Virus record (IMG/VR): IMGVR_UViG_3300031857_001447
Coordinates: 1 to 23,224 of that record
Source: a virus
Direction: 5' to 3' (one strand)
Length of the DNA stretch: 23,224 bases
A program made the position numbers and the translations under genes. Shown here in pieces: positions 13,655 through 20,747 of this stretch; position 1 is the stretch's first letter, and the number at the start of each line of letters is the position of its first letter. Below the pieces are notes generated by a model. It ran no database searches, had not been told where the DNA came from, and saw only the letters and a program-made list of their open reading frames with translations.

Positions 13655-14719
13655 ATGGCAAAACCATTTGATGTAAGTAAATTTAGAAAAGAGATTACTA
13701 AGAGTATTGAAGGTCTTAGTATAGGATATAACGACCCAACTGACTGGGTCAGTACAGGAAACTATGGACTTAACTATCTTATTAGTGGTGATTTTAACAA
13801 AGGCGTGCCTCTTGGCAAAGTCACTGTATTCGCTGGAGAAAGCGGTTCAGGCAAGTCTTTCATTTGTTCGGGCAACTTGGTACGCCATGCGCAACAACAA
13901 GGAATCTACGTAGTATTAGTAGATAGTGAAAACGCACTTGATGAAAAGTGGTTGCACGATTTAGGTGTAGACACTAGTGAAAGCAAATTGCTTAAACTCA
14001 ACATGGCTATGATTGATGACGTTGCTAAAACAATTAGTGAGTTTATGAAATCATACAAAACATTACCTGATACCGATCGTCCTAAGGTATTGTTCATTAT
14101 CGATTCATTGGGTATGTTGTTGACACCCACTGACGTTAATCAGTTTGAAGCAGGTGATATGAAAGGTGACATGGGTCGTAAGCCTAAAGCACTAACAGCA
14201 CTTGTTCGTAATTGTGTAAACATGTTTGGTAGTCATAATGTAGGACTAGTTGCTACTAATCACACATATGCTTCACAAGATATGTTTGATCCAGATGATA
14301 AAATCAGTGGTGGTCAAGGTTTCGTTTACGCCTCTTCAATTGTTGTTGCGATGAAGAAATTGAAACTTAAAGAAGATGAAGATGGTAACAAGATTTCTGA
14401 TGTAATGGGCATTCGTGCCGCTTGCAAGATTATGAAAACTCGTTATGCTAAACCTTTTGAAAGTATTCAAGTTAAGATTCCTTACGAATCAGGAATGAGT
14501 CCTTACTCTGGTTTGACTGACATGCTTGAGAAATCAGGTGCATTGAAAAAAGAAGGCAACAGTCTTGTATATACTACTAAAGACGGTGAGATTCTGAAAT
14601 CATTCCGTAAGGGTTGGGAAGCTAACAAAGATGGTTGTTTAGATAAAGTTATGCTAGAGTATACTGGTGTGACTAAGAGCATTGTAACCGCAGAGGTAGA
14701 AACCGAGGTAACAGAATGA
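13655..14719 (+). CDS. uvsX: UvsX RecA-like recombinase
   Basis: A 354-residue ATP-dependent strand-exchange protein that starts recombination-dependent replication and repair with UvsY and gp32. Visible landmarks are GESGSGKS (Walker A, 61-68), VLFIIDSLGML (Walker B, 145-155 with Asp150), LVATNHTYAS at 198-207 and KISGGQGFVYASS at 216-228, corresponding to the L2 DNA-binding and nucleotide-coupling region of RecA-type proteins. Length is close to T4 UvsX (391) and cyanophage copies. An AGGAG ribosome binding site precedes the start. The 3' end overlaps the acidic 82-residue gene by ATGA. Confidence 0.95.
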   Translation: MAKPFDVSKFRKEITKSIEGLSIGYNDPTDWVSTGNYGLNYLISGDFNKGVPLGKVTVFAGESGSGKSFICSGNLVRHAQQQGIYVVLVDSENALDEKWLHDLGVDTSESKLLKLNMAMIDDVAKTISEFMKSYKTLPDTDRPKVLFIIDSLGMLLTPTDVNQFEAGDMKGDMGRKPKALTALVRNCVNMFGSHNVGLVATNHTYASQDMFDPDDKISGGQGFVYASSIVVAMKKLKLKEDEDGNKISDVMGIRAACKIMKTRYAKPFESIQVKIPYESGMSPYSGLTDMLEKSGALKKEGNSLVYTTKDGEILKSFRKGWEANKDGCLDKVMLEYTGVTKSIVTAEVETEVTE

Positions 14720-14964: not shown

Positions 14965-15429
14965 ATGTCAAGCAATTGGTACACTAGGGTAAGCGCCGAT
15001 CTTTCAAAAATACCTGACTTCTTATCATACTATGATGCAGAGCTAGCCTCAGCAAAAAGCGATGTTAAAATTTTCGGTAACGTAGAAAAAAACATCTCTG
15101 CGTTACCGGGTATTACAGAGCACAGATTTAATCAACTACAAGAGATTGAAGCTGTACTACAATATCTTAATCTTCAACTACGCAAAATTCGTAGGAAACA
15201 TTTTCAAAAATACTTAGAAGCATATAATCGTGCATTGAGTGACCGAACTGCTGAGAAGTATGTTGAGGGTGAAGATGAAGTAATTGATATGGAAACAATC
15301 ATTAACGAAGTGGCACTACTACGAAATAAATGGTTGGGTACGATGAAAGGTTTAGATTCAAAGAATTTCATGCTCGGGCACATTGTTCGTTTAAGAGCCG
15401 CTGGTATGGAAGACATAACTGTTAGTTAA
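14965..15429 (+). CDS. uvsY: UvsY-like recombination mediator
   Basis: A 154-residue helical protein. In T4, UvsY loads UvsX onto gp32-coated single-stranded DNA. The sequence fits the phage UvsY family as I know it from cyanophages: a basic helix around LRKIRRKHFQKYLEAYNRAL (175-234 nt into the second half of the domain), then the segment NEVALLRNKWLGTMKGLDSK and the C-terminus HIVRLRAAGMEDITV. The position directly after uvsX and the acidic gene supports the call. T4 UvsY is 137 residues. No Walker or metal motif is present, as expected. Confidence 0.82.
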   Translation: MSSNWYTRVSADLSKIPDFLSYYDAELASAKSDVKIFGNVEKNISALPGITEHRFNQLQEIEAVLQYLNLQLRKIRRKHFQKYLEAYNRALSDRTAEKYVEGEDEVIDMETIINEVALLRNKWLGTMKGLDSKNFMLGHIVRLRAAGMEDITVS

Positions 15430-15438
15430 TAAAATAAT

Positions 15439-16245
15439 ATGACAACACTTAATACACGCAACATTAATACTATCACTGTATCACCATTGGCAAGTCCAAA
15501 CATTGGTGCCTACTCGTTTAGTAATAATCATTCAATGAATAATGTTTTTAGTTTAGATTCATTTATGAATGATAGAAACATGAATCCGGATGTAAAGAAA
15601 TATGAAATATATGAAAGTCCAATTGATTTACTAGCACTCAGCAGTGCTTGGAAAAGACTGCGTGATGCAGGTATTGCTCAAGGCAAGATAGGCAAGTTAT
15701 TAGATAAAGAATTATTTGAATCCTTGATTAGTGAAGATTATTCCCATGCTGAACGTATACGTGATTACTATAGCAAGAAAATAGTAATGTGGAAACTTAA
15801 AGGTGAACGAATGTCTAATTACCGAAATGACTTGTGTACATTTGTTCATAGTGATGGTACAAAATTTCGTGAAGAAATGTTGGGGCTAGCATATTACTTA
15901 CCCGCATTTTATGAATATGATAATCAGTTAGATGAAGTTCGACTACAAGTTGAGCCACCGTGTCTTGCAAAGAACCCCATGATTAATTCTAGTAGGACGT
16001 TGACACCTATCAAACGTATTACGCAAAAAACTAAACGTGTAAATGTGGTACAATATTGGTTGAAAGACACTAGAAATGACTACGCCGTAATGATTCAGAT
16101 TGAAGCAAAAAATCAGTTAGAACACTTGTGGAATCATGTTTTCAACACCAGTAATTTGATTGAAATTCACGGAAATTTTCATCTTAAACAACGTGATAAT
16201 TTTGAATACTTGAGTGTTACAAATTGGGAACTAACCCGAGGTTGA
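15439..16245 (+). CDS. Conserved phage protein, unknown function
   Basis: A 268-residue soluble protein. The first 50 residues are N/S-rich and probably flexible. The rest is mixed alpha/beta with helical stretches (SSAWKRLRDAGIAQGKIGKL, YSHAERIRDYYSKKIVMWKL) and a strand-rich C-terminal half ending FEYLSVTNWELTRG. I see no catalytic motif or metal site. A replication-associated role is only suggested by its place after uvsY. It has no Shine-Dalgarno, and AT-rich sequence (AATAAAATAAT) precedes the ATG. Its stop codon TGA lies inside the -35 box of the next promoter. Confidence 0.75.
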   Translation: MTTLNTRNINTITVSPLASPNIGAYSFSNNHSMNNVFSLDSFMNDRNMNPDVKKYEIYESPIDLLALSSAWKRLRDAGIAQGKIGKLLDKELFESLISEDYSHAERIRDYYSKKIVMWKLKGERMSNYRNDLCTFVHSDGTKFREEMLGLAYYLPAFYEYDNQLDEVRLQVEPPCLAKNPMINSSRTLTPIKRITQKTKRVNVVQYWLKDTRNDYAVMIQIEAKNQLEHLWNHVFNTSNLIEIHGNFHLKQRDNFEYLSVTNWELTRG

Positions 16246-16270
16246 CATTAAATGGATTTGGCTCTATAAT
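16242..16270 (+). promoter_or_regulatory. Consensus sigma70 promoter of the 16301 gene
   Basis: TTGACA (16242-16247) and TATAAT (16265-16270) are both perfect, with 17-bp spacing. The -35 box contains the stop codon of the upstream gene. Its flank resembles the two promoters at 16523 and 16973. Confidence 0.9.
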
Positions 16271-16300
16271 AGAGTCTTATTCAGTCAAAAGGAGTTGTTC

Positions 16301-16519
16301 ATGGGTTACAAAGTTGTTGCTGACAAGTATCAGATGGATGAAATGCGTACCAAATATGGTCCTCGCAAAGGTCTAGAAGGACCCTTTAATTTCTCCGGAC
16401 GAGTGTTGTATTATGACAACAATGAAGGTTCCTACTATGATCCCACTACAGACTTCTATGTGGAATCGTCAGAAATGGCTGTAATCCACTCTAAAATTGT
16501 TGATATTTTAAAGTCTTAA
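16301..16519 (+). CDS. Small protein under a strong promoter, unknown function
   Basis: A 72-residue protein starting MGYKVVADKYQMDEMRTKYG. I chose ATG 16301, not the in-frame TTG at 16295, because AAAGGAG (16287-16293) is then 7 nt upstream. It has two Tyr-rich strand-like segments (SGRVLYYDNNEGSYYD and TDFYVES) and a C-terminal helix. No known motif was recognised. A perfect promoter and ribosome binding site imply high early expression, typical of host-takeover proteins. That is inference. Confidence 0.75.
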   Translation: MGYKVVADKYQMDEMRTKYGPRKGLEGPFNFSGRVLYYDNNEGSYYDPTTDFYVESSEMAVIHSKIVDILKS

Positions 16520-16538
16520 AATTTGACAATAAATGGGT
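16515..16538 (+). repeat. 24-bp direct repeat carrying the -35 region, copy 1
   Basis: Identical to 16965-16988. The shared unit runs from CTTAAAATTTGACA to ATAAATGGGT, so it includes the tail of the upstream gene, the -35 box and the proximal spacer. Confidence 0.95.
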
Positions 16539-16551
16539 TTGGGTATATAAT
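16523..16551 (+). promoter_or_regulatory. Consensus sigma70 promoter of the 16585 gene
   Basis: TTGACA (16523-16528), 17 bp, TATAAT (16546-16551), both perfect. It begins 4 nt after the stop of the preceding gene. Predicted leader is about 27 nt. Confidence 0.9.
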
Positions 16552-16584: not shown

Positions 16585-16962
16585 ATGACTACAGAATTCA
16601 AATCTTGGGAAGAGTTGACACAATTAGAACAAGCCCGGGAACTTTACTGGGACATGTACAAGGATGCTTATGGCGTTCGCCCTCGCGGTATTGACACTTC
16701 CACTTGGACTTTGGAGCAGTTCGAAGCCGAGTTCGAAGGACTTGGTGTAGCTATTGAAGCCGAAGAAACGGCCCGTAAGGAATCACAACAAAACGCAATT
16801 TTCTCTTTTGAGAAAAGGGTTGATGACCTGATCTACTCAGGTGCTAAGGACCGTGCAACAGCAATTCGCTGGATCCACGAAGCTGAGGACACTCAGGGTG
16901 ATGATGAGTACCTGTGCTATACATTGGGCTTGCCCTATCAATACTTTCGCAAGGCCGCTTAA
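16585..16962 (+). CDS. Conserved phage protein of unknown function, G+C-richer than neighbours
   Basis: A 125-residue acidic, helical protein. The core WDMYKDAYGVRPRGIDTSTW (about 22-41) looks strongly conserved, and I recall similar segments in other aquatic phage and bacterial small proteins without known function. The C-terminal half has two helices (FSFEKRVDDLIYSGAKDRAT and an acidic HEAEDTQGDDEY). Codon choice is visibly more G+C-rich than in neighbouring genes (CGC, GCC and CTG codons), which hints at separate acquisition or high expression. It has its own perfect promoter and an AGAGG ribosome binding site 8 nt before the ATG. Confidence 0.8.
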   Translation: MTTEFKSWEELTQLEQARELYWDMYKDAYGVRPRGIDTSTWTLEQFEAEFEGLGVAIEAEETARKESQQNAIFSFEKRVDDLIYSGAKDRATAIRWIHEAEDTQGDDEYLCYTLGLPYQYFRKAA

Positions 16963-17033: not shown

Positions 17034-18038
17034 ATGTCTACTATTCGTATTAAATCAGGTTCTTATCGTAAAATTGACGTTAAGAATGAAGTGTTCACTC
17101 TTGTTAAAGGATATCAAGTGGGTGTTAAAGGTGGTTTTGTAACAGTAAAAAATGACGGACAGTTCCCCGGCTGGGGCGATACTGTCAAGGTAAATGTTGA
17201 CAAACAAGATTCTATTGAATTTTTGTCAGGCAAGCCCTCTACTCATGTTAAAGAAACTGTAACAGAGTCAGAAGTAGAGGCAATGGACCGTATTGCGACA
17301 CGTTTTGCAGTACTTGATGAAATGTCTAAGGCATGCATCAGTGGTGACATACGTGCTATGATTGTGACAGGTCCTGCAGGTATCGGCAAGTCACATGGTG
17401 TGAATTTGCAAATGGAAAAAGCAAGTATGTTTGACAGACTTGCAAGCAAAAAAGTTCGTTTTGAAGTTGTCAAAGGTGCTATGTCAGGTATCGGCTTGTT
17501 CGCTAAGTTGTACAAATTTAGTGATGCTAAGAACGTGCTAGTGTTTGATGATTGCGATATCTGGGAAGATCAAGATGCTATCAACGTACTCAAAGGTGCG
17601 CTTGATTCAGGTAAGACACGTAGAATTTCTTGGAATAAAGATTCACGTATTTTGCGTGAAGAAGGTATCCCGAATTCTTTCAACTTCAACGGCTCAATTA
17701 TTTTTATTACAAACAAATCGTTTGATGCAAAGAAAGCCGGCAAGATGCAACCTCACTTAGATGCATTGCAGAGTCGTTGTCACTTTCTGGACCTGACAGT
17801 TGATAGTGAGCGTGACAAAATGTTGCGTATCAAACAAGTGCATCGTGATGCTGATGGTGGTTTGTTTGCTGATTATGATTTTACTCAAATTCAGACAGAT
17901 GAAATCATGTCGTTCATTTGGGACAATCATACAAAATTGCGTGAAGTGTCCTTGCGTATGTGTTTGAAGGTTGCTGACTTAGTTAAGATTAGTGCTAACT
18001 GGCGCGAACTTGCTAAAGCAACTTGCATGAAAGCATAA
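17034..18038 (+). CDS. AAA+ ATPase
   Basis: A 334-residue protein. Residues about 18-58 look like a small beta-barrel (FTLVKGYQVGVKGGFVTVK, GWGDTVKVNVD). An AAA+ module follows, with MIVTGPAGIGKSHG containing Walker A (113-120), NVLVFDDCD (Walker B, 167-175), IIFITNKS with sensor-1 Asn227, and LQSRCHF with likely arginine finger Arg248. The C-terminal helical lid (255-334) ends WRELAKATCMKA. It is not the gp44 clamp loader or gp41 helicase by motif. The family and partner are unknown. It has its own promoter, an AAAGGA ribosome binding site and a strong terminator behind it, so it can be expressed alone. Confidence 0.85.
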   Translation: MSTIRIKSGSYRKIDVKNEVFTLVKGYQVGVKGGFVTVKNDGQFPGWGDTVKVNVDKQDSIEFLSGKPSTHVKETVTESEVEAMDRIATRFAVLDEMSKACISGDIRAMIVTGPAGIGKSHGVNLQMEKASMFDRLASKKVRFEVVKGAMSGIGLFAKLYKFSDAKNVLVFDDCDIWEDQDAINVLKGALDSGKTRRISWNKDSRILREEGIPNSFNFNGSIIFITNKSFDAKKAGKMQPHLDALQSRCHFLDLTVDSERDKMLRIKQVHRDADGGLFADYDFTQIQTDEIMSFIWDNHTKLREVSLRMCLKVADLVKISANWRELAKATCMKA

Positions 18039-18110: not shown

Positions 18111-18135
18111 GGGGAACTTATGTTCCCCTTTTTTT
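18111..18135 (+). terminator. Intrinsic (rho-independent) terminator
   Basis: GGGGAAC (18111-18117) pairs with GTTCCCC (18122-18128) across a TTAT loop, followed by seven T. It closes the 16.2-18.0 kb transcription block. In the 72 nt between the ATPase stop and this stem, a weaker fold (AGCG...CGCT enclosing GAC/GTC, about 18054-18077) is possible. Confidence 0.93.
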
Positions 18136-18177
18136 GCCAGTAAGTATTGTATTACTATCTGAATAAGTATATAATGA

Positions 18178-19260
18178 ATGATGACAAAAAAGCCTCATAC
18201 TAAAGAACAATTGGTAGATTATCTATCAAAGTATATAAGTCTGGGCACTTACGATAAAAAGTTTGTGAATAACTTATTGCAACTTAATATTGCCGCAGGT
18301 AAATCAGTTACTACAAACCAATCTGCATTGTTAGACAAGATTGTTTTACGATATCAACGTCAATTGTCAAAGGCCGAATTAAGCAGTATTGAATTGGTTA
18401 GGTTATCTTGGACTGTTCCTCCTATTGAAAGCTCACCTATATATACTGAGGCTCATATCTCTATAATGGATGACACCACTATAATTATTCATAGCCCTTA
18501 TAAAAAGGATTTTGTAAAAGAACTAAAGAACCTTGAATATATGAATTGGGACCGAGAAAACAAAATGTGGTCTGCGGTAGCATCAGAACAAACATTGAAA
18601 TCAATTTTGGAAATAGTCACTGCGTACTATGACAAAGTAAACTATTGCCCTGTCGTTCAACAGGTAATCGATACAGTAAAAGAACATAAGGACATTCGAT
18701 ATTGGAATCCTACTCTTGCAAGGATTAACGGTAACCTATATGTCATGGCTGCAAATCCATCATTGATGGCAGCAATAGAACATCTACCATTGAACACGGA
18801 ATATCATACTCTTGCTAGACTAAGTAGAATGGGAATTAGAATCGATCCCGCACTAATAAGTGATATACATGACGAGTTAGGCGGCACCGATGAAGTTATG
18901 AATAAACTTATTTTTGCATTAGACCCGCAACCGAAAATTGAAATTACTGACACGAATAGACTGATAGAGTATTTGCAAAATATTAAAGCAGACATGGTTT
19001 TGTTAGCAGAATGGTTCGGCACAAACAAGAGTATTGTTATGGAATTAGCTAATTTATTGAAAGCTAACAACATTACACATAGGGTTTTAAAAAGTAAAGC
19101 GGGTAACCTATCAAAAGATAAGAGTAACATTAACTTGCGAAAATGTGAGATGCCAGTTAAAATTAACATGAGCACCTTTACCGCGCACAGTTCTACTAAA
19201 CATGTTGCAAAAACAATACAGATAGTAAACAGTAGTGGGATTTATATAGAATACAAATGA
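18178..19260 (+). CDS. HARP-like domain protein coupled to UvsW
   Basis: A 360-residue protein. Residues 93-147 (HISIMDDTTIIIHSPYKKD, then LKNLEYMNWDRENKMWSAV) fit the HARP-type pattern: a hydrophobic strand, a PY-x-x-x-F helix, and W-D-x-x-N/T-x-x-W followed by a short helix. In SMARCAL1-type proteins this domain precedes a SNF2 helicase and supports annealing and fork remodelling. Here the helicase UvsW is the next gene, overlapping by ATGA. The C-terminal 110 residues look alpha/beta but have no clear motif. Start choice is uncertain: ATGs at 18178 and 18181 are in frame. A TATAAT box at 18170-18175 would give a leaderless message. No Shine-Dalgarno is visible. Confidence 0.7.
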   Translation: MMTKKPHTKEQLVDYLSKYISLGTYDKKFVNNLLQLNIAAGKSVTTNQSALLDKIVLRYQRQLSKAELSSIELVRLSWTVPPIESSPIYTEAHISIMDDTTIIIHSPYKKDFVKELKNLEYMNWDRENKMWSAVASEQTLKSILEIVTAYYDKVNYCPVVQQVIDTVKEHKDIRYWNPTLARINGNLYVMAANPSLMAAIEHLPLNTEYHTLARLSRMGIRIDPALISDIHDELGGTDEVMNKLIFALDPQPKIEITDTNRLIEYLQNIKADMVLLAEWFGTNKSIVMELANLLKANNITHRVLKSKAGNLSKDKSNINLRKCEMPVKINMSTFTAHSSTKHVAKTIQIVNSSGIYIEYK

Positions 19261-20735
19261 AACAATGTAAAATAATCGTCAAAGACGAAGTAAACGTAAA
19301 AATAGAAGGACTAGAATTAGGAGAGCGTAAAGCTCTAATGAAGCTATTCGAGTTTGAAGTCCCGGGTGCGAGGTATTTGCCAAGTGTCCGATTAGGTAGG
19401 TGGAATGGAAAAACCAGTTACTTTAGTCTTGGCGGTTCAAGTTACATCAACTTGCTACCCGAAATTCTTCCTGTACTAGAAAATTCAGGATATGATATTG
19501 AGTTGGAAGATACCCGCACCTATCAAACTTCTTTCTCTTTTTTAGAAGTAACAGAGCAAACTTTTAAAAATAAAGTCTGGCCAACAAAGCATCCTAAAGC
19601 AGGGGAACCTGTTGTATTGCGTGACTATCAAATTGAGATTATAAATAACTATCTTAAAAATCCGCAATCATTGCAGGAAATTGCAACAGGAGCCGGTAAG
19701 ACGTTAATCACTGCCGCACTTAGTTACACTATGGAACAGTATGGTCGTTCAATTGTCATTGTTCCAAACACTAGTCTTGTAACACAAACAGAAGCAGATT
19801 ACATTAACTTGGGTCTTGATGTTGGTGTATACTATGGTGGACGTAAAGAGTTTAATAAGACACACACTATCTGCACATGGCAATCATTAGGTAACATGCT
19901 TAAGAATACTAAATCAGGTGAAGCAGAAGTTGGCATAGGAGATTTCCTTGAAGGTGTAGTATGTGTTATTGTCGATGAAGTTCATCAAGCAAAGGCAGAC
20001 GTATTAAAAACATTACTCACTGGAGTAATGAGTCACATACCATTACGTTGGGGATTGACTGGCACTATACCTAAAGCTAAATTTGAATCAATGTCACTGA
20101 CTGTTAGCTTAGGCCCGGTTATCGGTAAACTATCAGCCAGTGAGTTACAAGATCAAGGTGTGTTGAGTAATTGTCACGTTAATATTTTGCAATTACAAGA
20201 TGCAGTAGAGTTTCCAAACTACCAAACTGAACTCAAGTACCTAGTTGAGAATGGTCAGCGTATGGATTGCATAGCCGCACGTGTGCATACAATTAGGGTT
20301 ACAGGAAATACATTGGTACTGGTTGATAGAATTGAAGCTGGTAAAATATTGCATCTTAAGTTAGAAGAATTGGGTATACCGGAAGATGAAGTTGTGTTTG
20401 TTTCAGGTGGAACAAAAGGTACCACACGAACAGAACACTATGATGACATTGCTACAGCCACTAACAAGATTATAATTGCAACATATGGTGTAGCCGCAGT
20501 CGGTATTAATATACCTAGGATCTTCAATGTAGTATTGATTGAACCGGGTAAGAGTTTTGTTCGAGTTATTCAAAGTATCGGACGAGGCATTCGTAAAGCA
20601 GAAGACAAAGACTTTGTGAATATCTGGGATATCACTAGTAGTTGTAAGTTTGCCAAAAGACATCTAACACAACGTAAGACCTTTTATAAAGAGGCTAACT
20701 ACCCGTTTGATGTTGAAAAAATTAAGTATAAGTGA
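19257..20735 (+). CDS. uvsW: UvsW-type superfamily 2 helicase
   Basis: A 492-residue ATP-dependent helicase. In T4, UvsW unwinds R-loops, regresses stalled forks and moves Holliday junctions, switching the phage from origin-driven to recombination-driven replication. Visible motifs are LRDYQ (Q motif, 121-125), IATGAGKT (motif I, 142-149), IVDEVHQ (motif II, 238-244), GLTGT (motif III, 266-270), ATYGVAAVGINIP (motif V region, 408-420) and QSIGRGIRK (motif VI, 439-447). Residues 1-110 form the small N-terminal substrate domain. Length matches T4 UvsW (about 500). It is coupled by ATGA to the HARP-like gene. Confidence 0.95.
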   Translation: MKQCKIIVKDEVNVKIEGLELGERKALMKLFEFEVPGARYLPSVRLGRWNGKTSYFSLGGSSYINLLPEILPVLENSGYDIELEDTRTYQTSFSFLEVTEQTFKNKVWPTKHPKAGEPVVLRDYQIEIINNYLKNPQSLQEIATGAGKTLITAALSYTMEQYGRSIVIVPNTSLVTQTEADYINLGLDVGVYYGGRKEFNKTHTICTWQSLGNMLKNTKSGEAEVGIGDFLEGVVCVIVDEVHQAKADVLKTLLTGVMSHIPLRWGLTGTIPKAKFESMSLTVSLGPVIGKLSASELQDQGVLSNCHVNILQLQDAVEFPNYQTELKYLVENGQRMDCIAARVHTIRVTGNTLVLVDRIEAGKILHLKLEELGIPEDEVVFVSGGTKGTTRTEHYDDIATATNKIIIATYGVAAVGINIPRIFNVVLIEPGKSFVRVIQSIGRGIRKAEDKDFVNIWDITSSCKFAKRHLTQRKTFYKEANYPFDVEKIKYK

Positions 20736-20747
20736 TACAATAACAAT

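Follow-up and report, generated by a model that had tools for sequence, protein, structure and literature searches.

HARP domains are familiar chiefly as components of motor proteins. When fused to other SNF2 motors, they give annealing activity (PMC4035279). In phage T4, the UvsW helicase has been described as bearing a HARP domain of its own (PMC4666394), and the timing of its expression, which is set by a late promoter, matters (PMC3016281). A potential partner of T4 UvsW, namely UvsW.1, has been reported (PMC7824862). This corrects a preliminary description of the locus studied here, which held that T4 has no such partner. The present locus encodes a HARP-like protein, gp360, separately from the UvsW-type helicase whose gene follows it.

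The DNA that we analyzed, IMGVR_UViG_3300031857_001447, is a fragment of an uncultured virus of 23,224 bases, hereafter the window. It carries a T4-like recombination block made of a RecA/UvsX-type gene (13655-14719), a UvsY-like gene (14965-15429), an AAA+ gene (17034-18038, phrog_1250), the gp360 gene, and uvsW. As the preliminary description had it, an ORF at 18178-19260 on the plus strand, encoding the motorless HARP-like protein gp360 (360 aa), is followed on the same strand by an ORF at 19257-20735 (492 aa), and the stop of the former and the start of the latter share a 4-nt ATGA overlap (19257-19260, plus strand). The gp360 start is probably at 18181 rather than at 18178, since locus L019 offers just that ATG and the spacing of the -10 element suits it. 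The gene after gp360 was likewise confirmed to encode a UvsW-type SF2 helicase, with matches to ResIII (3.7e-18) and phrog_16 (2.7e-71) and intact ATGAGKT, DEVH, and QSIGRGIR motifs. This helicase showed 48-55% identity to jumbo-phage helicases over 98-100% of its length, the nearest relatives being those of Phosso (55%), Atu_ph07 (51%), and 121Q (49%). Its residues 9-83 form a UvsW_N-like region (E 0.0031), the score of which, 18.4 bits, lies under the PF21241 cut-off of 25.3. Using hhalign, we found no sequence similarity between the UvsW N-domain and the HARP region of gp360. The gp360 gene is under purifying selection (dN/dS ~0.05), and across the same loci it evolves far faster than uvsW, with 33-40% identity for gp360 vs 65-78% for UvsW. 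A 268-aa gene to which no function was assigned lies between uvsY and the AAA+ gene (15439-16245) and evolves at about the rate of gp360.

An intrinsic terminator (GGGGAACTTATGTTCCCC followed by a T run; 18111-18134, plus strand) separates the AAA+ gene from gp360, and a hairpin with a T run was present ahead of gp360 in 65 of 71 homologous loci. A sigma-70-type promoter, TTGTAT-17-TATAAT (18147-18175, plus strand), stands before gp360, its -10 element ending 5 nt ahead of the ATG at 18181. In 34 of 37 loci, 4-8 nt separate the -10 from the gp360 start, and in 30 loci the distance is exactly 6 nt; this spacing would place the +1 at the gp360 start codon, which predicts a leaderless mRNA. As for uvsW, a -10 at 6-nt spacing from its own start was seen in just 2 of 36 loci. 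Nine relatives that lack gp360 (L129, L148, L158, L167-L169, L171, L175, and L183) have a -10 situated 6-8 nt before uvsW. Since uvsW in these relatives has a promoter of this type directly in front of it, gp360 appears to lie between promoter and uvsW. Hence, gp360 and uvsW are predicted to be the first and second genes of one transcription unit, preceded by the terminator and then the leaderless promoter, and we infer that translation of uvsW is coupled to that of gp360. Downstream of uvsW, another sigma-70-type promoter, TTGAAA-17-TACAAT (20713-20741, plus strand), is located 6 nt before the ATG of the next gene (20748). A -10 at this spacing was found in 28 of 36 loci, and a leaderless mRNA is predicted for this gene as well. 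Elsewhere in the window, at 16242-16551, the intergenic stretch from ORF 15439-16245 to ORF 16585-16962 has two perfect TTGACA-17-TATAAT promoter matches spaced by 281 bp.

The preliminary description had proposed that residues 93-147 of gp360 (18454-18618, plus strand) resemble HARP, and had suggested a profile-profile comparison. This segment holds a strand, the stretch P107-Y108-K-K-D-F112 (PYKKDF), and the stretch W124-D-R-E-N-K-M-W131 (WDRENKMW). A single-sequence Pfam scan of the gp360 of the window gave no HARP match, and single-sequence Pfam and PHROG scans pointed to no meaningful family. No member of the gp360 family reached the curated PF07443 cut-off of 25 bits, the matches listed for relatives scoring 12.4-15.2 bits. 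These sub-threshold HARP matches were seen in 4 of 46 aligned family members (best E 0.0071), which made HARP the joint commonest Pfam family among the 46, and in the divergent L151. The listed matches coincided, all falling near residues 106-136 and on HARP positions 6-36. A HARP scan of 11 phage contigs gave matches in two of them, both within gp360 homologues and under the cut-off.

A profile of the HARP-like region was then built from 97 sequences of the gp360 family and searched against 3,600 sequences. The top three were bona fide HARP proteins: the HARP protein of PJN02 (E 1.2e-7), gp5 of vB_BcoS-136 (E 1.8e-7), and the solved SMARCAL1 HARP domain, 4O66 (E 0.0034), the sequence of which had been obtained via a HARP-like consensus query. 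When the gp360 profile was aligned with these HARPs by hhalign, a probability of 96.1% and an E value of 3.2e-9 were obtained over 45 columns in one register. The score was 44, a value reached by none of 200 column shuffles (maximum 18). A smaller earlier profile test agreed, and both HARP repeats of vB_BcoS-136 gp5 were matched in register. The resemblance of residues ~93-147 that the preliminary description had surmised is beyond chance, and, judged by sensitive profile comparison, gp360 is homologous to HARP. Since the Pfam cut-off was not passed, we class it as HARP-like, outside PF07443. In the window, the HARP-like segment is slightly acidic (net -3), and DNA binding is not obvious from its charge.

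We modeled gp360 with AF2. A first model based on 7 sequences (pLDDT 70.5) was superseded by a model based on 46 sequences (mean pLDDT 89.5, pTM 0.63), in which N-terminal helices lead to a unit at residues 92-150 and, past a middle region, to a Rossmann-like domain at the C terminus. The N-terminal helical module covers residues 10-84 (18205-18429, plus strand) and is marked by the motifs GTYDKxF, T-x-N-Q-x-x-L, and K-I-x-x-R-Y. The SNF2 helicase of Corynebacterium phage P1201 was considered as a source of this module, and this was not supported. Residues 92-150 are modeled as strand-strand-helix-strand-strand-helix. Among viral proteins, the fold matches included a 73-aa SMARCAL1-like fragment (TMt 0.67) as well as a HepA-related protein (E 6.3e-4). 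The PDB fold search gave nothing at E <= 0.001, 4O66 was not among the PDB fold matches listed, and the PDB sequence search found no gp360 relative. The PDB fold matches were weak: residues 86-150 matched the DNA-binding domain of T4 MotA (Z 6.7), whose counterpart for residues 237-358 was a set of RecA-like and other Rossmann domains (Z <= 7.8). Residues 237-358 make up the C-terminal Rossmann/RecA-like domain (18886-19251, plus strand), tentatively assigned from the AF2 model and its fold matches and devoid of Walker motifs. Throughout gp360, we found no Walker A, no DExx motif, and no helicase Pfam match. Natural 220-aa versions of gp360 that lack the C-terminal domain exist in one sub-lineage (L090-L092). 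A 181-aa protein of Atu_ph07 was rejected as a relative, the match being one of fold only, with no profile support.

The gp360 family is undescribed and occurs in ~100 uncultured phage contigs. Two IMG/VR scans yielded >80 gp360 loci, and the longest contig with a relative measures 367 kb. No gp360 relative was found by tblastn of INPHARED phages or in a scan of GTDB genomes. A distant cultured relative is gp418 of Sinorhizobium phage Phosso, which lies near uvsW. The neighboring Phosso gp419 (L015:5378-6880, 500 aa) looks SNF2-lobe-like by eye, with broken Walker and DEAH motifs; database searches gave no support to its being a pseudo-SNF2 protein. We fetched 85 gp360-uvsW junctions, which include some overlapping loci. 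The spacing was -4 nt in 69, -14 in 12, -1 in 2, 0 in 1, and +3 in 1, that is, the gp360 stop overlaps the uvsW start in 83 of 85. Five further gp360 loci had no visible uvsW; in four of these the sequence stops within gp360, and in the fifth (L030) it stops 26 nt past it. No case of gp360 without a nearby uvsW was found. Seen from the UvsW side, in a survey dereplicated to 106 loci, gp360 lay immediately upstream of uvsW in 84 and in the vicinity but not adjacent in 4, and 18 had no gp360. On the tree, its presence and absence amount to six changes, at least five of which are forced by well-supported branches. Collectively, these data indicate that gp360 goes with uvsW and that uvsW can do without gp360; the survey of neighborhoods that the preliminary description had suggested thus turned up no gp360 independent of uvsW. 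The whole UvsX-UvsY-AAA-gp360-UvsW block is syntenic among relatives, however, and the adjacency alone is therefore no proof of a two-protein complex. In four loci (L160, L161, L163, and L170), the gp360 homologue is separated from uvsW by an ORF of 533-547 aa, the start of which resembles a signal peptide.

The likeliest role for gp360 is that of an accessory DNA-junction-binding partner of UvsW. We give slightly less than an even chance to gp360 being a DNA-binding accessory that acts together with UvsW within the recombination/fork-repair machinery of the phage. Because it is HARP-like, has no motor, and is apparently carried on the same message as uvsW, the gp360 of these uncultured jumbo phages may assist UvsW as a subunit of its own. 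The UvsX/RecA and UvsY neighbors argue for a role in recombination or fork repair, and the proximity of Phosso gp418 to uvsW, together with junctions within -14 to +3 nt in 85 of 85 cases, argues for an accessory of UvsW. On the other hand, the fast evolution of gp360 relative to UvsW and the negative charge of the HARP-like segment count against a DNA-binding accessory. The HARP-like domain would touch branched or single-/double-strand junction DNA, UvsW would provide the ATP-driven motor, and gp360 would contribute substrate recognition or a bias toward annealing or fork regression in trans. The overlap of the two genes might give similar dosage and help the two chains to pair as they are translated. 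As for the C-terminal RecA-like domain, catalysis is improbable, and it may serve to contact protein or DNA.

A stricter version, put forward tentatively, is a two-subunit fork-remodeling enzyme, in which the UvsW motor and a HARP-like subunit acting in trans would be made from one leaderless bicistronic mRNA, as a split counterpart of double-HARP SMARCAL1. The two-subunit annealing helicase of the preliminary description is plausible but unproven. What stands of it is a HARP-like domain on a chain of its own, devoid of ATPase motifs, the gene of which is found only with uvsW and overlaps it as described. What does not stand is a partner that supplies HARP function to a motor lacking HARP: UvsW keeps its own N-terminal domain, which in T4 is the one described as HARP (PMC4666394), and 18 of the 106 UvsW loci do without gp360.

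The C-terminal domain allows a different account, wherein gp360 is a decayed HARP-SF2 helicase, that is, a HARP module with a degenerate RecA-like lobe, which now serves on its own as a DNA-binding protein at forks or during recombination, making no contact with UvsW; sharing a transcription unit would merely co-time expression. The model of this domain aligned over 108-117 residues with the RecA lobes found in SF2 enzymes, namely SauUSI (Z 7.8), SRCAP, XPB, and DDM1, hhalign matched it to the beginning of RecA lobe 2 in both UvsW and the P1201 helicase, at P values of only 0.086 and 0.11, and the absence of Walker motifs fits decay. Yet Z values <8 are common among Rossmann folds and unrelated Rossmann proteins matched the region equally well, such that a degenerate helicase lobe is suggestive only. 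Given also the conserved stop/start overlap and the fact that gp360 was never found away from uvsW, we regard decay as rather unlikely.

Alternatively, gp360 could regulate uvsW expression, its translation gating that of uvsW and any DNA contact serving autoregulation. The position of gp360 between a conserved leaderless promoter and a uvsW that seldom has a -10 of its own (2/36), the promoter directly before uvsW in several gp360-less relatives, the importance of UvsW timing in T4, and the MotA DNA-binding domain among the fold matches all agree with this possibility. But a HARP-like domain is no known transcription-factor domain, and the conserved protein motifs of gp360 exceed what translational coupling needs, which makes a regulator improbable. 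Still less probable is a HARP resemblance by convergence on a short motif, of the kind seen in DUF5710, in a protein that does something unrelated, host takeover for example. In L083, DUF5710 did match at this position (E 1.2e-4), and fast evolution and the failure of every member to pass the Pfam cut-off go in the same direction. Such convergence is at odds with the single-register profile-profile alignment and its shuffle controls, and with the model topology and the viral fold matches to HARP-annotated proteins.

A motorless HARP-like family tied to UvsW, with natural loci that have it and loci that do not, offers a simple system for asking if HARP is able to steer a fork-regression motor in trans, and gives a function lead for a so far unannotated family. 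Among described proteins, the "HepA-related" ones that stand alone in the Bacillus phages vB_BcoS-136 and PJN02 are phage HARPs that likewise have no motor. They differ in size (245 and 168 aa), and HARP occurs twice in the vB_BcoS-136 protein; neither HARP gene had an annotated helicase beside it in the stretches viewed. These stand-alone proteins of cultured phages are encoded at L100:3422-4159 and L105:2995-3501. Phosso gp418 shares with gp360 a collinear N-terminal and HARP-like module (hhalign E 7.8e-6), but is 212 aa long, and the 500-aa gp419 is encoded between it and the helicase. The human annealing helicase SMARCAL1/HARP (PF07443, PDB 4O66) has a HARP domain, which handles the DNA and aligns with gp360 in one register (YN/PYK..F helix, [YW]D..[TN]K.W), and joins it to an SNF2 motor in one chain, whereas gp360 has no motor, stays below the Pfam cut-off, and thus does not show the SMARCAL1-type combination of HARP and SNF2 ATPase in a single chain. 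Finally, T4 UvsW, with a HARP-type N-domain on an SF2 motor, is the type of enzyme encoded next to gp360; in T4 the proposed partner is the small trihelical UvsW.1, whereas here gp360 is an additional, separate HARP-like protein.
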